A DNA stretch of 64,000 nucleotides from Methylomarinum vadi (GTDB lineage Bacteria; Pseudomonadota; Gammaproteobacteria; Methylococcales; Methylomonadaceae), in contig NZ_JPON01000001.1 of the NCBI RefSeq assembly GCF_000733935.1, positions 682,001 through 746,000 of the forward strand, given 5' to 3'. The translations under genes and the position numbers were made by a program. The notes under the pieces were generated by a model. That model was not told the origin of the DNA. It searched no databases and was given only the letters and a program-made list of their open reading frames with translations. Below are positions 1 through 8,743 of this stretch, one piece after another. Every line of letters starts with the position of its first letter. The first letter of the stretch is position 1.

Positions 1-1435
1 GTTGATACGCGGCCATTTCACGCCGATAAAGGGTCTGTAAATAATGCTCGAACGCCTCATGGGTATAAATCTTAATGGGCGAATCGGCGAGTATTTTGCA
101 CACGGCAAGTTGCCGTTTGAGTTTGAGTTTGGTTTCGGCCTGAGGCAATACTTCGGGATAACGCTCTGAGTTGATCAAATAATAAAACAACTGGCGGTTG
201 GAAAGTCGCTCAAAACGGCTTTCCGGAACCGGACTCTTATTCACCTGAAAACAGAAACTCCCGCTTGTTGGCGTAGCCAAGCCGATTTTCGGCTGGCTTT
301 GCGCACCACTGCATAGCCAGTTTCGGACAATAGCCACTTCGTCCGGTTGTAAAATGCCGAACATCGGCCCTTCAAAGCTAAACAGACGCAACAGTCTACT
401 CTTTTCCGGACTGTCGATATCGACATAGGGAGATTGGCGTAACGCCGTCAAAAATGCCTCACCGTTTGTCGACAACCGGTCAAACCAGTCGTCCAGACTG
501 CGCCCCGCCAAAACGATTCGGCCATGATGCCCTGTTGCCGCCGCTGCCTTGCGCTGAAGCAGCTTCAGCATCGCCTGTGCCGGAGACATGTGCTGGGTTA
601 ATTTATCGTGAAGCTGCGCGGTCGTTTTACTGAATAGGTATTGGTACAACCAAAAACCGGATTGAATCCGTTTCCAGCGCCGCTCTCTTTGCACCGAGTT
701 ATCTTGCAGATATTGCTCGATCGATTTTTCGATCAGATCCGTTTGCCGTGCCAACAGCTCCCGACGTTGAGAAAAAAAATCGATATTTTGTACCTTTCCG
801 GGAAAATAATGTTCGCATAAGGTGTGAGAGCGACAAAATGCCAAGGTAAATCCCAGAATTTCCGCCGACATAGACCGAGGCATGTAGGCCAAAGCCAGTT
901 GTACCGCGGCAAAGTCGAACACGCCGTCCAATAAACCGTCCTTTCCGCAGTAACTTTTTGCATAAATGGGAGGCGAAGCAATGCCAAAGCGCGCCAGCAG
1001 GTTCCGGTAGGAGCCGGCATAATCGGCTTCGTGAAAGGCCAAATAGACCCGAAACAACGCGGCGCATAACGCTTCCTGGTTACTGGCGGCGATATAAATA
1101 TCCTGCAGCCAGCAAGGTTCGGTCAGAATCAACGGAGCCGACAGTCTCAGGGCTTCCTTGAATTTATCCGTGCCGGTCAACACGCAATCGGAAGACTTCG
1201 TAACATGCAATGACGCAATCGCCGTCGGGCAATACGGTTTGAATTGCGGCAGAAAATAACGCTCGGCTTCATCAAGATAATGTCGTAAATAGGCCTGAGC
1301 CAGGCTGCAATTGTCATGATATTCATGAAAATGCAACAGACGGTAAAACACCTCCCTGCCCGTAACAGCAATTTTCCCGGAATCGGGACATTCCTTCGCA
1401 GACAGCGATGTGGCGGCAGAGGGCATCTTACTCAT
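1..1435 (-). CDS. Heme-oxygenase-like iron-containing redox protein (3' end outside window)
   Basis: An open frame runs from ATG at 1435 to the window edge, about 478 codons without a stop. It overlaps the end of the carbamoyltransferase gene by 8 nt, so the two are probably translated together. Features in order are a His/Glu-rich N-terminal stretch (FHEYHDNC), a segment FHEADYAGSY near residue 140, and EILGFTLAF near residue 200. The last resembles the helix of heme-oxygenase-like di-iron proteins annotated as iron-containing redox enzymes. Family assignment is by motif memory only and is tentative. The second half (about residues 250-478) shows no motif I recognise. Position as third gene of a radical SAM/carbamoyltransferase operon suggests a tailoring oxidase or lyase. 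Confidence 0.5.
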   Translation of the reverse strand, partial: MSKMPSAATSLSAKECPDSGKIAVTGREVFYRLLHFHEYHDNCSLAQAYLRHYLDEAERYFLPQFKPYCPTAIASLHVTKSSDCVLTGTDKFKEALRLSAPLILTEPCWLQDIYIAASNQEALCAALFRVYLAFHEADYAGSYRNLLARFGIASPPIYAKSYCGKDGLLDGVFDFAAVQLALAYMPRSMSAEILGFTLAFCRSHTLCEHYFPGKVQNIDFFSQRRELLARQTDLIEKSIEQYLQDNSVQRERRWKRIQSGFWLYQYLFSKTTAQLHDKLTQHMSPAQAMLKLLQRKAAAATGHHGRIVLAGRSLDDWFDRLSTNGEAFLTALRQSPYVDIDSPEKSRLLRLFSFEGPMFGILQPDEVAIVRNWLCSGAQSQPKIGLATPTSGSFCFQVNKSPVPESRFERLSNRQLFYYLINSERYPEVLPQAETKLKLKRQLAVCKILADSPIKIYTHEAFEHYLQTLYRREMAAYQ

Positions 1436-3173
1436 GTCGGAGCTTGCTAATCAGATAATCGTTGATCACCAAATGGTCGAGACCGCTGGTTAAAAACACC
1501 GCAAGCGCATCTTCCAGCGTGTGCACCATCGGTTTACCCATGACATTGAAGCTGGTATTCAGCAACGCCGGGACGCCACTGATCCGGTGAAATTGTTCGA
1601 TCAAGTGGTAAAAACGCGGATTAAACTCCCTAGTAACCGTTTGCAAGCGTCCGGTTCCGTCGACATGACAAACCGCCGCCAGCCGATCGCGCCGCTCCGC
1701 CTTGATCCGCAACGTTTTGTCCATGTAGGGAGAAGACTGGTGATTTTCGAAATATTTCTCGGCGTATTCGGCCAAAATGGATGGCGCGAAAGGCCGGAAT
1801 CGTTCCCGAAACTTGATCTCGGCATTGATCCGGTCTTTGGTTGCAGCGTGTCGCGGATCGGCCAGGATCGAGCGATTGCCCAACGCCCGCGGGCCGAATT
1901 CCGCCCTACCCTGTACCCAGGCGACCAAAGCTCCGTCCGCCAACAATTGCGCGGTCGTTTCGCAAATCCGCCCCGGCAAATGACTAATCTTTAATCCCCC
2001 GTGATACTTCCGAAGCTGTTCCACCGCCGAGTCGGAAATGTCGGAGCCTAGATAGGGGGACAAACAGCCGGACGGCAACGGTTGGTTTGGCCTATCCCGG
2101 CGCAAGGCCAGCCAGGCGGCGCCCAGCGCCGTGCCGTCATCGGCCGGAGCCGACGGAATATAAACCCGTTCGAAACCGGTTCTTTCGCTGATCTGGCCAT
2201 TGAAGGCCGAATTCAAGGCGCAGCCGCCGGCAAAAGCCAATTGCTTTGCCCCGGTCCGTTCCTGCAGGTTCTGCAATAGTTTTGCCGACAGTTCGGCAAA
2301 AAAATACTGGCCGGTATAGGCGATGTCCGCAGCCATCTCAATCGATTGGTTTTGCTGTCGCCGAAAACCTTGCAGACGATCCGCTTGCTTGAATATTGCC
2401 GGAGCCGGATGGCGGCAGCGCAATCCGTCGACCGTCATCATGTTCTGCAATATGTCATACAATTCCGGGTTCAAACGTCCGTAAGGCGCCAATCCCATGA
2501 CTTTCCATTCTTCGCCCTTGAGCCAGTCGAATCCGCAGAGTTCGGTAACCTTCATATAGTAGAAGCCGAGACTGCCGGTGCCGCAGTTTTCGTGGATCAG
2601 TTGCAAGCGGCCGTCGACGAAGCGGTAAAATGCCATCGAACCGCGTTCGCCGAATGAATCGATCACGGCGCAAGCTGCCTCGGTAAAGGGGCTGCCGAAA
2701 CAGGCCGTCGCCGCATGTGTGAGATGATGGGGAAAATCGGCAAAATGGATCGGCGCCTGCGGATAGCATTCGCGCAGCACACGAACCGTATTCAAGCCGG
2801 CGCTTCGGATTTTGTTGCGCTGGCAGGCGATCATGTGGTGCAGTTGGTAATTCGGCAAAGGCGAACGGACGCGTTTGAACCCTTCTTTCAACAACCCCGG
2901 CGCATCGAGGCATCCCAACGCCGCGACGACATTTTCATACCAGGGGCGTTTTTTTCGCCAATTGATGGCCAGCGTGAATTGACAAGGAAACCGGCAATAG
3001 CGTTGCAACAACTCGGGCAAGCGTAACAGCGTATCGGCCTCGCAATTCATTGCCCGTTTATGCTGTAGATAACGCTCGGTCGCTTCGGCAAACAACACCG
3101 CGCCATTCTGATCGATGATCGCCAGAGCCGGGTCATGATAAGTCACCGACAAACCGATGTAATAATGTCTCAT
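1428..3173 (-). CDS. NodU/CmcH-family carbamoyltransferase
   Basis: A 581-residue protein, the usual length for O-carbamoyltransferases of the NodU/TobZ/CmcH family. These enzymes make carbamoyl-adenylate from carbamoyl phosphate and ATP and pass the carbamoyl group to a hydroxyl of a small molecule. The N-terminal half has the actin/Kae1-like fold start (YYIGLSVTYHDPALAII) and the segment FAGGCALNSAFNG near residue 320. The C-terminal YrdC-like half carries the diagnostic EFGPRALGNRSILADPR stretch and the closing LLNTSFNVMGKPMV. Its ATG lies 12 nt after the radical SAM gene and its end overlaps the next gene by 8 nt, so the three are one operon. The acceptor substrate cannot be told from sequence. 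Confidence 0.9.
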   Translation of the reverse strand: MRHYYIGLSVTYHDPALAIIDQNGAVLFAEATERYLQHKRAMNCEADTLLRLPELLQRYCRFPCQFTLAINWRKKRPWYENVVAALGCLDAPGLLKEGFKRVRSPLPNYQLHHMIACQRNKIRSAGLNTVRVLRECYPQAPIHFADFPHHLTHAATACFGSPFTEAACAVIDSFGERGSMAFYRFVDGRLQLIHENCGTGSLGFYYMKVTELCGFDWLKGEEWKVMGLAPYGRLNPELYDILQNMMTVDGLRCRHPAPAIFKQADRLQGFRRQQNQSIEMAADIAYTGQYFFAELSAKLLQNLQERTGAKQLAFAGGCALNSAFNGQISERTGFERVYIPSAPADDGTALGAAWLALRRDRPNQPLPSGCLSPYLGSDISDSAVEQLRKYHGGLKISHLPGRICETTAQLLADGALVAWVQGRAEFGPRALGNRSILADPRHAATKDRINAEIKFRERFRPFAPSILAEYAEKYFENHQSSPYMDKTLRIKAERRDRLAAVCHVDGTGRLQTVTREFNPRFYHLIEQFHRISGVPALLNTSFNVMGKPMVHTLEDALAVFLTSGLDHLVINDYLISKLRHE

Positions 3174-3185
3174 CCTACCGTTTCC

Positions 3186-5053
3186 TCAACCCGCATCGGC
3201 CAATTGCCGAATAGCCCGGTATTTGCGCCAAGCCTGACGCACGCGACCGGGGAATTCCGGATCCTGGACGAGAAATTCCTTAAGGTAGCGTTCCCAGACA
3301 GGCCAGGCGATCTGCGCAGACAAAGCCGAGCGTTGCCGAAAAGCTTCGGAGAAGGCTTGGATTTGCAGTGTCAGACATTGTTCCGACGATAATGTCGCTC
3401 CCTGAAACTCGGCAAACCCTCGTTCGAGAAACGGCTGGCAAAAAACACGCATGATCTGCAAGCGGCTGGCCTGGTAGGAAAAATCGATCGGCTGAAGCCT
3501 GACTCTGATGGTATCCAGGACTGGTGTCATGGGATGAGCTTGCAGCAATTCCACCGATGTGATATCGGCCTGCAAAAATTGTTGCCAGGAAAAAAGTTGC
3601 CAATCTTGATATTGCCTCTGCGCGATTTCCCGCTGCAAGGCGCGAGTCTGGCCGATGAAATGCGTATATTGCGCGCAAAGGGCAAAAAATTCGGCCAACA
3701 CGCCTTGAAAATCCGCGCTACCCGGCGAAAAACGCCGACCGGCGATGGCCACGGCCTGCGGCAGATAACGCCAGTAAATCGGCGCGTGATTTCGAGTCAG
3801 GATCTTGCCCACCGCCAACAGTTGCTCGCCCTTGCCGCGGAAATCGCCTTTCAAGCCCGGATCGACCATACCCAAATGACGCATGACTCGACGGAAATAC
3901 GCTTTGGGGCAATAAATGCCCTCCAATATTTTTAGGTAATTGCGTTCCGCCAGACGCACGGACATTCGCCACGGAATGAAATTGATCACGCCATCCGAAT
4001 TATTGCCGCTGCTGTTCTGGATAAATCGCCCTTCGTCGACGAGGCGCCGCATCAAGGCCGTTTGCGGTAAAGCGTTCAGCAAACCGGCCATAACGATGGG
4101 GGCATGGCTGCTGTTGACGAAGTCGATAAAGCGCTCGACCGTCTCGTCGCTATCGTGGTCGAACCCGAAAATCATCCCCATCATGACACCGGAGCCGGTT
4201 TGTTCGCTGATATAGGTTAATTTTTCAGTCAGATTTCTTTCGCCCCGCAGGTTTTGGCGTTTGTCGGTTTCTCTGAGCGCCGCTTTATTCGGTGTTTCCA
4301 CACCGTAGAAACTCTGACTGAAATTGCAGCGCCGAAACCACGCCCTGACTTGGTGCATGGTCTCCGATTCGTCGGCAAATCGCAGCGTCATCTCGGTATA
4401 TTTAGGATGATGGATACCCAGCTCCTCGCCGATATGGTAAAGTTTTTTTAACGCTTCCAACGCCGACTTCGGGTTGCCGATGAAATTGTCGTCGACGATG
4501 AAAACCGGCCCCCGCCAGCCCAATTCGCTCAATTGGCGGAAAGCCGCCCGGGTTTGCCGCCAGGGAGTGACGCGGTAGTTTTTGCCGAATCGCGCCGGAA
4601 TATCGCAAAATTCGCAGGATTCCGGGCAGCCACGGCTGATCTGCAATGCCATGTGGGCATAATTGCTCAGATCGATGGCGGAATAATCGGGCTGAAAAAA
4701 CTTGTCTGCCGGCGCCGGAGTTCCGCGATAATACTTCCTGGCCGTACCAGTGGCGAGACCCTGCAATAAATCATCGATCACCATTTCCGCTTCGTTTTCG
4801 ATCAGATGGTCGGCAACGTCCATTAAAGGCGACTGGCCTGTCACGGCGGTACCGCCGACGATCAGGGTTTTGCCGCATTGTTTGATCGAAACGGCATTAC
4901 GATAATAACTCTGCTGTTGCGCCGACATGCCGCCCATGTAGACGTGCCCGGCATCGGTTATCAATTGAGGTAGAGGCCGCGGATCGACATTGAGGTCGAC
5001 CAGCTCGATTTTACGATAATAAGGCTTTAAATGATTGTATAAACCGAGCAAGC
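3186..5053 (-). pseudogene. B12-binding radical SAM protein, C-terminal part (gene split by IS1380-family insertion)
   Basis: This is the larger part of a gene cut by the element at 5058-6639. Read alone it can only start at TTG 5051 and lacks the first 52 residues. Joined to 6793-6640 it gives 2022 nt, or 673 residues plus stop. It carries the rest of the cobalamin-binding Rossmann-like domain (IELVDLNVDPRPL, then LIVGGTAV), the radical SAM cluster CxxxCxxC in GCPESCEFCD (Cys 194, 198, 201 of the restored protein), and a DUF4070-like region as in HpnP-type class B enzymes. About 150 extra C-terminal residues follow. Class B enzymes often methylate unreactive carbons. No internal stop or frameshift is present, so the break looks recent. 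A shortened product from TTG 5051 would lack part of the B12 domain. Confidence 0.88.
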
Positions 5054-5057
5054 CTAA
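5054..5057. repeat. Target site duplication CTAA, copy 1
   Basis: CTAA directly abuts the left end of the IS element and matches the four bases at 6640-6643 beyond its right end. On the minus strand it reads TTAG, part of the Leu-Gly codons of the interrupted radical SAM gene. Four-base duplications fit the IS1380 family. Confidence 0.85.
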
Positions 5058-5073
5058 CCCGGATATTTCATCA
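5058..5073 (+). repeat. IS1380-family terminal inverted repeat, left
   Basis: CCCGGATATTTCATCA, matching 14 of 16 bases of the opposite end. It marks the transposase 3' side of the element. Confidence 0.85.
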
Positions 5074-5237
5074 GTCCCTTGAAACCCTATCGAAACCCTC
5101 GTTTGTTTTAAAACATGCGATCGTAAGGAGAAATTGAGCGGTCAAAAAGGGAATTAAGCATTGATTTCCGTTTTTCAGGCGCAACTTCCCCTTACCCCAT
5201 TGTTTATCAGCGTGCCGGGCACAGCACTTTGTTTGTA

Positions 5238-6551
5238 CTAATCAGGGCACAGGCGCTGACAAACGGATTTAAACAAGGATTGAAACGGATACTGACTGCT
5301 GAACAGCAGTCGAATACGACGGGTGTTACGAATGATGACGGCACCGATTTTAAACAATTTCAGGCGAATGGTGGCGCAAGTGGCTGTCGCTAGTTCGGTA
5401 TTTTTGAGGGCGATTCGGCGAATCGCATGGATCAACGTATAGGCCAGTGTCGATAACAGCAAACGAAACTGATTCGGCCACCACAGGCTGCAACTGGTGC
5501 GGTCGGCAAACAGATCCAATTGTTGTTCTTTAATCCGGTTTTCCATGTCGCCTCGCGCACAGTAAACGGTTTCATAGAGTGTTTGTGCATCGCCGTCCAG
5601 ATTGGTTACGACATAGCGGGGATTACTCCCTTGGCTCATGTGTTCGGCCTTAAGAATGACACGGCGTCGGCGTTTCCAGGTGCCGGCTTTATAGTGGAAA
5701 TCGGTAAAGAGACGCTGTTTCTGCTGTTCGCTTTGGAACTGTTGCCGGGCTTGTTCAATCCAGGGTTGGCTTAAGCGCGTTAAGCGTTTATTTTTGGCCA
5801 ACCCGACAATATAGTGAACGCGATGCCGCTCGCACCAACTCAGCATCTTATGGCGACAAAAACCGCCATCGCCGCGAAACGTGATGTCAACGTCCGGCCA
5901 AGCCTGACGCAAGCGCCGAACCAGCAAAGCCAGAATCGCCCAGCTGTGCTTGGCGCCATCAATATTGCTGGGACGTAGATAACTGACCAAGCAGTGATGG
6001 CCGCAAAAGACATACAACGGCAGGAAACAATAGTGCCGATAGTAGCCATGAAAAAAACGTCCGTCCTGTTCGCCATGAACCGGATCGTCGGTGGCGTCGA
6101 AATCCAGGATCAACGATTTCGGCGGTGTCTCATACGAAGCGATAAACTGTGCCAGCAACTCCTCATGAACTCGCCACATCAAGGCGCGATCCGCCTGCTG
6201 CTCAAACCGGCACAAGGTGGATCGGCTGCCCAATGTCTGATCCTTTTCCACCGCCGTCTGAAAGGCGATATCATTTCTGAGCGTGTCATGATCATTCAAA
6301 TCCTCATACCCACACGCCAAGCCATAAACCCGTTGACGGAGCAGGTTGATCACAGAGTGTTGCACGCGGTCAGGGGCTCTGGCGTCAGGAATCTGCGCCG
6401 CTATCCGTTCGGTTAACCCTAACTGCTGGTCAACCGCTCGTAACAACAGCACACCGCCATCACTGGTGATCGCTCCACCACTGAATTGGGCGTCTATTTT
6501 ACGGCGTTTTAAGGGAGGAAATTCTATTTGAGCTGGAGTACAATTTGTCAT
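5238..6551 (-). CDS. IS1380-family transposase
   Basis: A DDE transposase of about 437 residues from ATG 6551. A longer frame reaches TTG 6608, but its extra 19 residues are close to the IS terminus and unlikely to be used. The N-terminus has the family segment FSGGAITSDGGVLLLRA. Likely acidic residues sit in LILDFDATDDPVHGEQ and DITFRGDGGFCR, with a late E in ARGDMENRIKEQQLDL, the usual D-D-E spacing for this family. The frame is intact, so the element may still move. No clear ribosome binding site precedes ATG 6551. Confidence 0.92.
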   Translation of the reverse strand: MTNCTPAQIEFPPLKRRKIDAQFSGGAITSDGGVLLLRAVDQQLGLTERIAAQIPDARAPDRVQHSVINLLRQRVYGLACGYEDLNDHDTLRNDIAFQTAVEKDQTLGSRSTLCRFEQQADRALMWRVHEELLAQFIASYETPPKSLILDFDATDDPVHGEQDGRFFHGYYRHYCFLPLYVFCGHHCLVSYLRPSNIDGAKHSWAILALLVRRLRQAWPDVDITFRGDGGFCRHKMLSWCERHRVHYIVGLAKNKRLTRLSQPWIEQARQQFQSEQQKQRLFTDFHYKAGTWKRRRRVILKAEHMSQGSNPRYVVTNLDGDAQTLYETVYCARGDMENRIKEQQLDLFADRTSCSLWWPNQFRLLLSTLAYTLIHAIRRIALKNTELATATCATIRLKLFKIGAVIIRNTRRIRLLFSSQYPFQSLFKSVCQRLCPD

Positions 6552-6623
6552 GGGCAAGTTGTTGGTTAAATTCAATCTAAGTAACTGAATTTTATCAAAT
6601 ATCAACAAACTTGCCCGCCTCTA

Positions 6624-6639
6624 TCATGAAATATTCGGG
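6624..6639 (-). repeat. IS1380-family terminal inverted repeat, right
   Basis: Read on the minus strand as CCCGAATATTTCATGA. It is the transposase 5' side of the element and the partner of 5058-5073. Confidence 0.85.
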
Positions 6640-6643
6640 CTAA
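6640..6643. repeat. Target site duplication CTAA, copy 2
   Basis: Second copy of the 4-bp duplication flanking the IS element. Retaining this copy and dropping the one at 5054-5057 rejoins the codons for Pro-Pro-Leu-Gly-Leu-Leu-Gly. Confidence 0.85.
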
Positions 6644-6793
6644 CGGCGGCAGCAATCGTTGCGGCATGCCGAAGCGATTCCGCTTGCTATATAGAGTCAG
6701 GCTGCGGCTATAACTCCAAAAGGTATCGCCGCTATCGAATTGCGGATAAATCAGTACGGCCTTGTCGGCAAGGTATTCGTTCAACGGGATCAA
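6640..6793 (-). pseudogene. B12-binding radical SAM protein, N-terminal fragment
   Basis: The first 51 codons of the gene interrupted by the IS element. The peptide reads KAVLIYPQFDSGDTFW and then SKRNRFGMPQRLLPPL, which is the start of a cobalamin-binding domain of the DUF4070 radical SAM group. There the pattern is hydrophobic-YP-x-F...FW...PPLGLL. The final Leu-Gly codons continue at 5053. The only available in-frame start near the stop upstream is TTG 6793 (or TTG 6784). No ATG exists in this frame, so the exact start is uncertain. Alone it cannot make a functional protein. Confidence 0.82.
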
Positions 6794-6902
6794 CCATCTA
6801 CAAAATCAACGAGATCAGAAGTACGGTTTTACCACGCCCAAAAACCTTTGCAAGACCATTTTTAGCCAGTAAGCCGATTGAAATTCAGCGCTAGCATGTG
6901 AT

Positions 6903-6932
6903 ACCGCCCGGTTCTGGGCAAAACCAGGCGGT
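6903..6932 (-). terminator. Hairpin after the small secreted-protein gene
   Basis: Arms ACCGCCCGGTT (6903-6913) and AACCAGGCGGT (6922-6932) pair over 11 bp with one mismatch and a short loop. It lies 16 nt past the stop at 6948. There is no T-run, so it may be a processing or Rho-linked structure rather than a classic intrinsic terminator. It separates this gene from the radical SAM operon downstream. Confidence 0.5.
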
Positions 6933-6947
6933 AAGATTGGTAGGATA

Positions 6948-7514
6948 TTATTTCTGGTCGACCACGTGCACACACAGATTAGTCGGCTTTTGCTGGCCAT
7001 CAAGGACCGGCTTCAACGTGAACGAAACCACTGCTTCGACGCCGGCATCACCCAACTCGCTTACCGGCACGTCTTCAACCTTAAGTTTATTCTTTTTCAC
7101 CGACCAGTTGTAATCGGCATCGAATGCTTTGTTTTTGCCGGAATTGTCCAGATCCACCTCGAAATTGGCGCCTTTACATGCTGACGTGGGTTCCTTCAAA
7201 TCCAGCACGTGGGTATGAAAACCGCTCGGCACCTTTTCATAAGAGCTGTCGTCGATCGGCAAATGCGTCACCGCAACCAACAGATTGTTACCGCCATCGG
7301 TCAACGCCGCATAACCAAACGCGCCGGACTTTCCATCCATCGGTATATTGCCTTGCGTCTCGACTTCCAGTTCCAAGGTTTTTTTACCGTTTTCCGCCTT
7401 GACTTCCGTTTCCACCTCTTTTAATTGCAGATAACCGGTTTTATCGGCGGCATGAACCGGTAGGCTCAAAACGCCAGCCAACAGTATCGAACAACTTACA
7501 ATCTGAGTTCTCAT
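6948..7514 (-). CDS. Secreted protein of unknown function
   Basis: A 188-residue protein with a clear Sec signal peptide (residues 1-22, cleavage after SLPVHA), so it is periplasmic or released. Its ATG has a near-perfect ribosome site (GGGGAGGAATT). The mature part is about 165 residues, rich in Val, Lys and Asp with alternating hydrophobic residues, which suggests a beta-sandwich. A central FHTHVLDLK segment and two Cys (in TSACKG and TNLCVH) could form a disulfide. I recognise no family. It is bounded by a hairpin on the 3' side and is probably a single-gene unit. Confidence 0.75.
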   Translation of the reverse strand: MRTQIVSCSILLAGVLSLPVHAADKTGYLQLKEVETEVKAENGKKTLELEVETQGNIPMDGKSGAFGYAALTDGGNNLLVAVTHLPIDDSSYEKVPSGFHTHVLDLKEPTSACKGANFEVDLDNSGKNKAFDADYNWSVKKNKLKVEDVPVSELGDAGVEAVVSFTLKPVLDGQQKPTNLCVHVVDQK

Positions 7515-7610
7515 AATTCCTCCCCATTGATAAAGTATCGAATCGATATTTTATTAGCTAAACCTTCACGCTGTAAAGTATTTCGTTATTTATACAGCAA
7601 AAGTATCCGA

Positions 7611-8612
7611 TTAAGCCAAATCGACAACCGTCTGATTCGGTGCTGATGACGACGTTTGCATCATGTCCGGGGAGAGATAGCGTCCGGATTCAAAGGACCA
7701 ATCCAAATTACCGCGCATCCAGGCCCGCATGATGGCGACGAATTTAGCTATATCGTTATCGACTTTATCATCAAAATGAGGTAGCGAATGTTCCAGTCTC
7801 ATGAACCGCCTTACCTGTTGCTCGATCTGTTCACTCACTCGATCAATGGCCTCTTGCATTCCGATAGACTGATGGTGATCGATAATCAGAGCCAGGTTAT
7901 GCATGTCCTTGTGTTTGCGCTCTTTTTGCAGCGAAATAATATCATTGGACCAACATACGACATTGTTGGTAATCTCAATCAATTCAACCATGGTAGGATG
8001 CTTACGCGCCGATATCGGAAGACTGATGGATTCGGTCAACTCGATCAAATCGATATCGGTCAGCAAACCGCCGGTATAAGGACGCATGCGGGTATAAGTC
8101 TCGGCATCGGGCCAACGATTGTTTTTCCGGTTTTCGGCTTCCCATTGCGTCGATTCAAAATATTCCTCGGCACTTTGCATGAAACGAGTCAGCCAGGTTA
8201 AAGGCATCAACGCCTGGAGACGTTCACGAATATTATGAATGGCGTGAACCAAGGCCGGGTCCTCGGCATCTGGCGTTTCACCAGTTAATATCTCGAGACA
8301 ACGACCATGCAATACGGCCAATTGCTTGGGTTCCTTGCCCAGCCCCCACTCGTCGCATTGGTCGTCTAGTATGAACAACCAGGTATTCCAAGCGGCAACG
8401 ATTTCCAATCGATCGAGTGGTGCATTTGGGTAAGCCCTTGCCGCCAATAAGCCGAATTTGGAACGCTGCAGGCGTTTCCAGGGTTCTTCGCCGGAAATCA
8501 AGCGAAATTGTTGCACCCAGTTAAGGGTTCTTTCTTGTAAGGTATCGGCGAAGGGGCTGATGATCGAAGGAAAAGGACAATAAAACGTGGGGATGGTGAT
8601 TTGTTGACTCAT
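7611..8612 (-). CDS. Class I terpene synthase (terpene cyclase)
   Basis: About 333 residues from ATG 8612, chosen because AAGGA lies 8 nt upstream; a TTG two codons earlier is less likely. Numbering from that TTG, it has the aspartate-rich DDQCD at 85-89, the Arg pyrophosphate sensor in TRMRPYTGG (Arg 179), the NSE/DTE metal motif NDIISLQKE at 225-233, and a C-terminal RY pair (ESGRYLS, near 315). All Mg-diphosphate binding elements are present, so it should ionise and cyclise a prenyl diphosphate, probably farnesyl or geranyl diphosphate. No P450 or prenyltransferase is adjacent. Length and motifs match actinobacterial sesquiterpene or 2-methylisoborneol-type cyclases. The product cannot be predicted. 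Confidence 0.92.
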   Translation of the reverse strand: MSQQITIPTFYCPFPSIISPFADTLQERTLNWVQQFRLISGEEPWKRLQRSKFGLLAARAYPNAPLDRLEIVAAWNTWLFILDDQCDEWGLGKEPKQLAVLHGRCLEILTGETPDAEDPALVHAIHNIRERLQALMPLTWLTRFMQSAEEYFESTQWEAENRKNNRWPDAETYTRMRPYTGGLLTDIDLIELTESISLPISARKHPTMVELIEITNNVVCWSNDIISLQKERKHKDMHNLALIIDHHQSIGMQEAIDRVSEQIEQQVRRFMRLEHSLPHFDDKVDNDIAKFVAIMRAWMRGNLDWSFESGRYLSPDMMQTSSSAPNQTVVDLA

Positions 8613-8743
8613 TCTCAATCCTTGTAAGTTTTTGCCAAAATTATGCCTTGCAATTGCCCTACAATAACCCTAATTTCATTAAACAATTTATTTAACTCCC
8701 TTGCATTTGCTATGTTAATTAATCATGACGTTGCCGACTTCAG

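Follow-up and report, generated by a model that had tools for sequence, protein, structure and literature searches.

Insertion sequences of the IS1380 family duplicate 4–5 bp of DNA at their target. Among its members, outward promoters are described for ISEcp1 and ISPme1; in ISPme1 the promoter is strong and lies next to the 3′ end (PMC9330008, in excerpt). The family also serves as an outgroup to piggyBac (PMC10813416, in excerpt). Here we describe an IS1380-family element within a radical SAM enzyme gene of Methylomarinum vadi, in a 64,000-nt stretch (the window; contig NZ_JPON01000001.1, positions 682,001 to 746,000 of the forward strand) of a genome assembled as a single contig of 4,335,162 bases (G000). 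Coordinates are positions in the window unless a genome or locus is named. It is highly probable that a presumably active element inserted recently into this gene and duplicated 4 bp, with the enzyme most likely lost as a result. The element, its flanks and the two pieces of the gene are as follows.

5058..6639, minus strand (that of the transposase): IS1380-family element, 1582 bp, defined by its ends, its copies in the genome and profile matches
5238..6608, minus strand: transposase frame, 456 codons from a TTG (start codon tentative), matching NF033539 and PF13701
5054..5057, no strand: left copy of the target duplication CTAA, from flank comparison
6640..6643, no strand: right copy of the target duplication CTAA, from flank comparison
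6640..6793, minus strand: radical SAM gene, 5′ fragment of about 51 codons if read from TTG 6793, with relatives favoring TTG 6784 (alignment A1 and decay test)
3186..5053, minus strand: radical SAM gene, 3′ fragment with 621 codons if read from TTG 5051 (DUF4070, Radical_SAM and alignment A1)

An earlier, sequence-only reading of this stretch had placed an IS1380-family element at 5058–6639, and the transposase bears this out with matches to NF033539 (E 7.9e-128, 426.6 bits against a cut-off of 180) and PF13701 (E 5.3e-171); the family was assigned by profile and element architecture. The same reading had reported imperfect inverted ends and CTAA at both flanks. When recomputed, 14/16 bases agreed between the left end, read inward from 5058, and the right end, read from 6639 as its reverse complement; at least 14 of 16 matches at a given place would arise by chance with a probability of about 3e-7 and a 4-bp match with 0.004. 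Searches of the genome with the element returned 22 matches, 16 of them spanning the full length at 95.8–100% identity, and five of these 16 (including the one in the radical SAM gene) were identical over all 1582 bp, an indirect sign of transposition activity. The first 8 bases of the left end were common to all 16 full-length copies and the last 8 of the right end to 15. Each of the 16 was flanked by a 4-mer with central TA (an NTAN target), perfectly duplicated at 11 copies and differing solely at the first base at the remaining five. Rfam, at gathering score, gave no match in the window, L073, L161 or L162.

The radical SAM gene was one of several hit by this element. Sixteen sites were surveyed for their flanks and 15 could be interpreted, L006 not being counted because an incomplete element copy forms its flank. 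At 4/15 sites the open frames on the two sides were frame-compatible and each at least 50 codons long: the radical SAM gene, an alpha-amylase-like gene, an NMT1/THI5-like gene with one piece matching the first and the other the following part of a single profile, and a fourth that has no match in Pfam. From its copies and their flanks, the element is evidently resident in this genome, has spread recently and has struck several genes.

The break can be undone exactly. Joining 6793–6640 to 5053–3186 yields 2022 nt with a sole stop at the end, as had been claimed, and the same join retaining both CTAA copies contains 10 stops. The rejoined protein was compared with its relatives in an alignment (A1) of 21 rows, comprising the M. 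vadi gene and 20 of 24 close relatives (L014, the broken gene of G023, as well as L027, L030 and L032 were left out); a further alignment, A2, omits L083 and L099. The Pro-Pro-Leu-Gly-Leu segment that spans the break, described earlier as a conserved segment rebuilt by the join, is invariant in all 21 rows, and so is a CxxxCxxC motif at C194, C198 and C201. A protein of 673 residues had been predicted: the unbroken frame is real, and the relatives in A1 begin three codons downstream of TTG 6793, at the position of TTG 6784, which makes that start and a length of about 670 residues the likelier ones. A C-terminal region of about 120 residues is present in the M. vadi protein and four other rows of A1 and absent from the 16 shorter rows. 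The long fragment matched DUF4070 (E 5.4e-16), while scores for PF04055 (Radical_SAM) fell below the gathering score of 29.5 both for this fragment (27.4 bits) and for the protein of a congeneric genome, G001 (28.2 bits).

The uninterrupted gene, for which the sequence-only reading had suggested a search in related genomes, was found in G001, flanked on both sides by the same neighbors and 71% identical along the long fragment. G001 holds one copy of the element, 89% identical and on a contig other than that of the radical SAM gene. A misplaced repeat would offer a trivial account of the insertion, and with 16 copies in the genome such a misplacement could arise from short reads alone; given a duplication unlike the flanks of most other copies, the exact restoration of the frame and the gene order of G001, we regard an assembly artefact as extremely improbable. 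A close, long match to the radical SAM gene is present in 24 other genomes, and in 23 of them the junction is read through, which led us to reject the idea that the gene naturally starts there. The refuting case named earlier, of relatives that start or end at the junction without an element, did not arise in these 23 and was approached by a single genome, G023 (JANEMG010000236.1; L073, contig C353), where the match starts at residue 50, within about 10 bp of the break described here, behind the end of a different repeat. The 190 bp preceding that match (L073:1-200) are repeat sequence, the last ~82 bp of which recur at 11 other places in the bin, stopping each time at the same base with differing sequence beyond. 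This break lies near a contig end, where two repeats are fused, and is perhaps a product of mis-assembly; a search of the bin for the first 50 residues of the protein found no credible match (best E 0.5). A scan of genome contigs with the long fragment of M. vadi returned no relative. Scanning with A1 gave, among the best 80 of 564 matches, ten at 55–62% identity and the remainder at 32–38%; nine of these ten are labeled as methanotrophs and the tenth is a gammaproteobacterial bin.

To gauge decay, departures were counted wherever the other 20 rows of A1 all agree, with G023 left out. The short fragment showed 0/21 departures, which also places it in the same family as the long fragment, as had been supposed, and the long fragment showed 1/175; single other rows showed 0–1 and 0–4, respectively. 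Relative to G001, nonsynonymous divergence (dN) was 0.22 for the short and 0.23 for the long fragment and synonymous divergence (dS) 1.1 and 1.8, so that the description of both halves as otherwise intact is upheld, and values for the downstream genes were similar (dN 0.16–0.38, dS 1.3–2.2). The five identical copies, assuming a star phylogeny, can have diverged by no more than about 4e-4 per site since they spread. Because neither fragment has decayed and element copies are identical, the earlier proposal of a recent insertion is supported in evolutionary terms, with insertion in culture and in nature indistinguishable on these data.

Four points weigh against this account of a single recent insertion. 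The dS values relative to G001 are near saturation, which leaves dN/dS blind to a brief spell without selection, and the identity of the copies could stem from gene conversion. As the species is represented by a single strain, the presumed empty site is a reconstruction. Finally, the near-identical break codon in G023 would be unexpected for a random single insertion, even with a different repeat and a contig end involved; we put the chance of this coincidence at roughly one in a hundred, a figure reckoned post hoc.

The structure of the enzyme was approached through a model of the unbroken G001 protein (mean pLDDT 88.3), in which the first strand spans residues 6–13 and residue 48, aligned to the break, opens a helix at 48–60. 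In a fold search with this model the best match was AprD4 (6fd2, E 6.1e-18), followed by MgmA, CysS, OxsB, TokK and TsrM (E 5e-15 to 2e-10), with 10–20% identity over all; a sequence search against the PDB gave 6 distinct sequences, again with 6fd2 as the best (E 7.8e-12). The predicted fold thus makes a clear match to the radical SAM superfamily, despite the PF04055 scores. AprD4 functions without B12, so the fold is no proof of B12 dependence. The Pfam B12-binding family had no match in the unbroken G001 protein, and TIGR04013 scored 44 bits against a cut-off of 251. Dependence on B12 is plausible, on the strength of the modeled fold and of family similarity below cut-off. Within NCBIfam no named family reached its cut-off for the radical SAM protein. 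The hopanoid C-3 methylase HpnR (TIGR04367, 24 and 21.2 bits against 650) and the hopanoid-associated radical SAM protein HpnJ (TIGR03471, 28 and 25.9 bits against 577.6) were rejected on this basis, and PhpK, BchE, AprD4 and other named enzyme families were far below cut-off. Methylcarbamate hopanoids are known from M. vadi (PMC5100885, in excerpt), and the carbamoyltransferase gene downstream prompted us to consider a link. We set it aside: we found nothing to connect the radical SAM enzyme with hopanoids, and the link is further weakened by strain IT-4, which would carry the broken gene if it is the same strain and still produces these compounds according to that excerpt.

We propose that an active IS1380-family element entered an NTAN site about 50 codons into the radical SAM gene, with duplication of 4 bp. 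The break would fall where the first long helix of a predicted N-terminal B12-type Rossmann domain begins, parting this domain from its first strand; judging from the G001 model, neither piece would therefore be expected to adopt the fold of the whole enzyme. The gene gave a single match in its own genome, and since there is no second copy the enzyme has most likely been lost. Joint action of two translated fragments, or activity of the C-terminal fragment alone from TTG 5051, would fit the open and undecayed state of both frames. The frame of the short fragment, though, extends 12 codons into the element before a stop, and the long fragment has no ribosome site before TTG 5051 recognizable by eye and, by the model, would be without its first Rossmann strand; we consider a functional product of this kind very improbable.

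Loss of the enzyme need not be the only effect. As transposase and gene run in the same direction, the downstream genes would be either severed from their promoter and silenced or transcribed from within the element. Transcription driven by the element would have a precedent in the outward promoters of ISEcp1 and ISPme1, if the analogy within the family holds, and a scan of the minus strand between the transposase stop and the element end found no terminator-like site; the downstream genes are also intact, which a recent insertion alone predicts just as well. Promoter-like sites in 4900–7700 numbered 4 against 2.8 expected, with none on the minus strand within 5058–5237, and a laxer scan reached 8–9/12 matches at best. 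Expression from the element is therefore somewhat unlikely in our estimation. The insertion itself is of an ordinary, well-known kind and is well supported.

The downstream genes form a set with the radical SAM gene, located at window positions 1–3173 and L040:16240-19435. Its remaining members and the upstream neighbor are listed below.

1428..3173, minus strand: carbamoyltransferase gene, intact, next in the set (PF16861 E 5e-72, PF02543 E 3.4e-32, synteny)
1..1435, minus strand: 5′ part of a haem-oxygenase-like gene of 714 codons in total, extending to G000:C1:681291 (PF14518 E 8.5e-20)
Beyond the window, after the haem-oxygenase-like gene: gene for a desaturase-like membrane protein (PF00487 E 2.6e-23)
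6948..7514, minus strand: upstream neighbor encoding a 188-aa protein, 79% identical in G001, with no Pfam or NCBIfam match

The order radical SAM, carbamoyltransferase, haem-oxygenase-like, desaturase-like is kept in 15/24 of the other genomes, three of which (G025, G071 and G050) leave about 1.3 kb between the radical SAM gene and the next member. In five (G023, G088, G104, G057 and G124) the contig ends before the set is complete, and in four (G121, G130, G034 and G077) the set is scattered, with the carbamoyltransferase and haem-oxygenase-like genes each present in the genome. This conserved order points to a single pathway. Literature searches found no description of the four-gene set under the wording tried, and it is apparently undescribed in print; we find it more surprising than the insertion itself. 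A terpene synthase gene also lies near the set, at 7611–8618 (PF19086 E 1.1e-46), and in NCBIfam it comes closest to sesquiterpene synthases, in every case below the cut-off.

The set is patchy across the family, with a close radical SAM match in 26/201 genomes, counting M. vadi itself and the fragmented gene of G100. In G100 (L054:9500-13860) the gene lies in pieces amid mobile-element remnants, and elsewhere this genome retains part of a carbamoyltransferase gene, interrupted by one stop, while a haem-oxygenase-like match is absent. Two congeneric genomes point the same way: in G002 neither the radical SAM nor the carbamoyltransferase gene found a match and the haem-oxygenase-like gene found a partial one, and G003 (85% complete) matches none of the three. 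Together with the broken gene of G023, this pattern is what would be expected if the set had already become dispensable in the lineage and the insertion were one step in its loss, as in other methanotrophs. Neither the fragments nor the downstream genes show the relaxed constraint that such a history would lead one to look for, and we entertain it tentatively, as possible but not favored. A stronger version, in which a methanotroph pathway has been inactivated repeatedly by different mobile elements, twice within ~10 bp of one codon, and survives here as a truncated set driven by the element, strikes us as improbable. Under the favored account of a single recent insertion, the strain is probably without the product of a pathway retained in several relatives, and work on this pathway would therefore be better done in a relative with an unbroken gene.

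The IS1380 element is not the only mobile element to have split a gene in this genome. About 13 kb before the window, nifN (G000:C1:667522-669406; L040:3435-5448) is split by one of the IS200-like copies described below, after approximately profile position 279 of 433; G002 and G003 match the whole profile. With 40 of 98 candidates scored, a 532-bp query gave at least 43 full-length matches, 42 of them identical. The genome is evidently in a recent burst of transposition, in which a nitrogen-fixation gene was split too. Complete nitrogen-fixation genes have been named for two other strains and not for M. vadi IT-4 (PMC4722281), and the text of PMC4950536 mentions neither nitrogen fixation nor transposition. 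An IS5-family transposase gene (NF033578) was also observed just past nifE, at L040:7948-9600 outside the window.

An IS200/IS605-family element (for example, G000:C1:668109-668486) had 102 matches in the M. vadi genome, with loci outside the window including L040, L001, L058 and L189-L193. Seventy-eight copies have one in-frame stop in the transposase, 18 do not, and 6 are remoter. When six stop-bearing and four intact copies were compared, the element differed at a single position, and the stop was at codon 105 of 143 in all six stop-bearing copies, ahead of what we take to be the position of the catalytic tyrosine. A non-autonomous version thus seems to have outgrown its parent, presumably mobilized in trans or because the stop is read through. 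The imbalance of 78 versus 18 is more surprising than the IS1380 insertion.

Compared with described systems, the element agrees with the IS1380 family, as represented by ISEcp1 and ISPme1, in its transposase profile, its short imperfect inverted ends and its 4-bp duplication, and it is unlike these two in that we saw no captured neighbor gene and no convincing outward promoter. In G001 the radical SAM gene stands in the same neighbor order as the one in the window, without the element. The family to which both belong has the CxxxCxxC motif and, in the G001 model, a predicted fold that matches radical SAM enzymes with a B12-type Rossmann domain, from AprD4 to TsrM, yet differs from all six in having so low a sequence identity to them.

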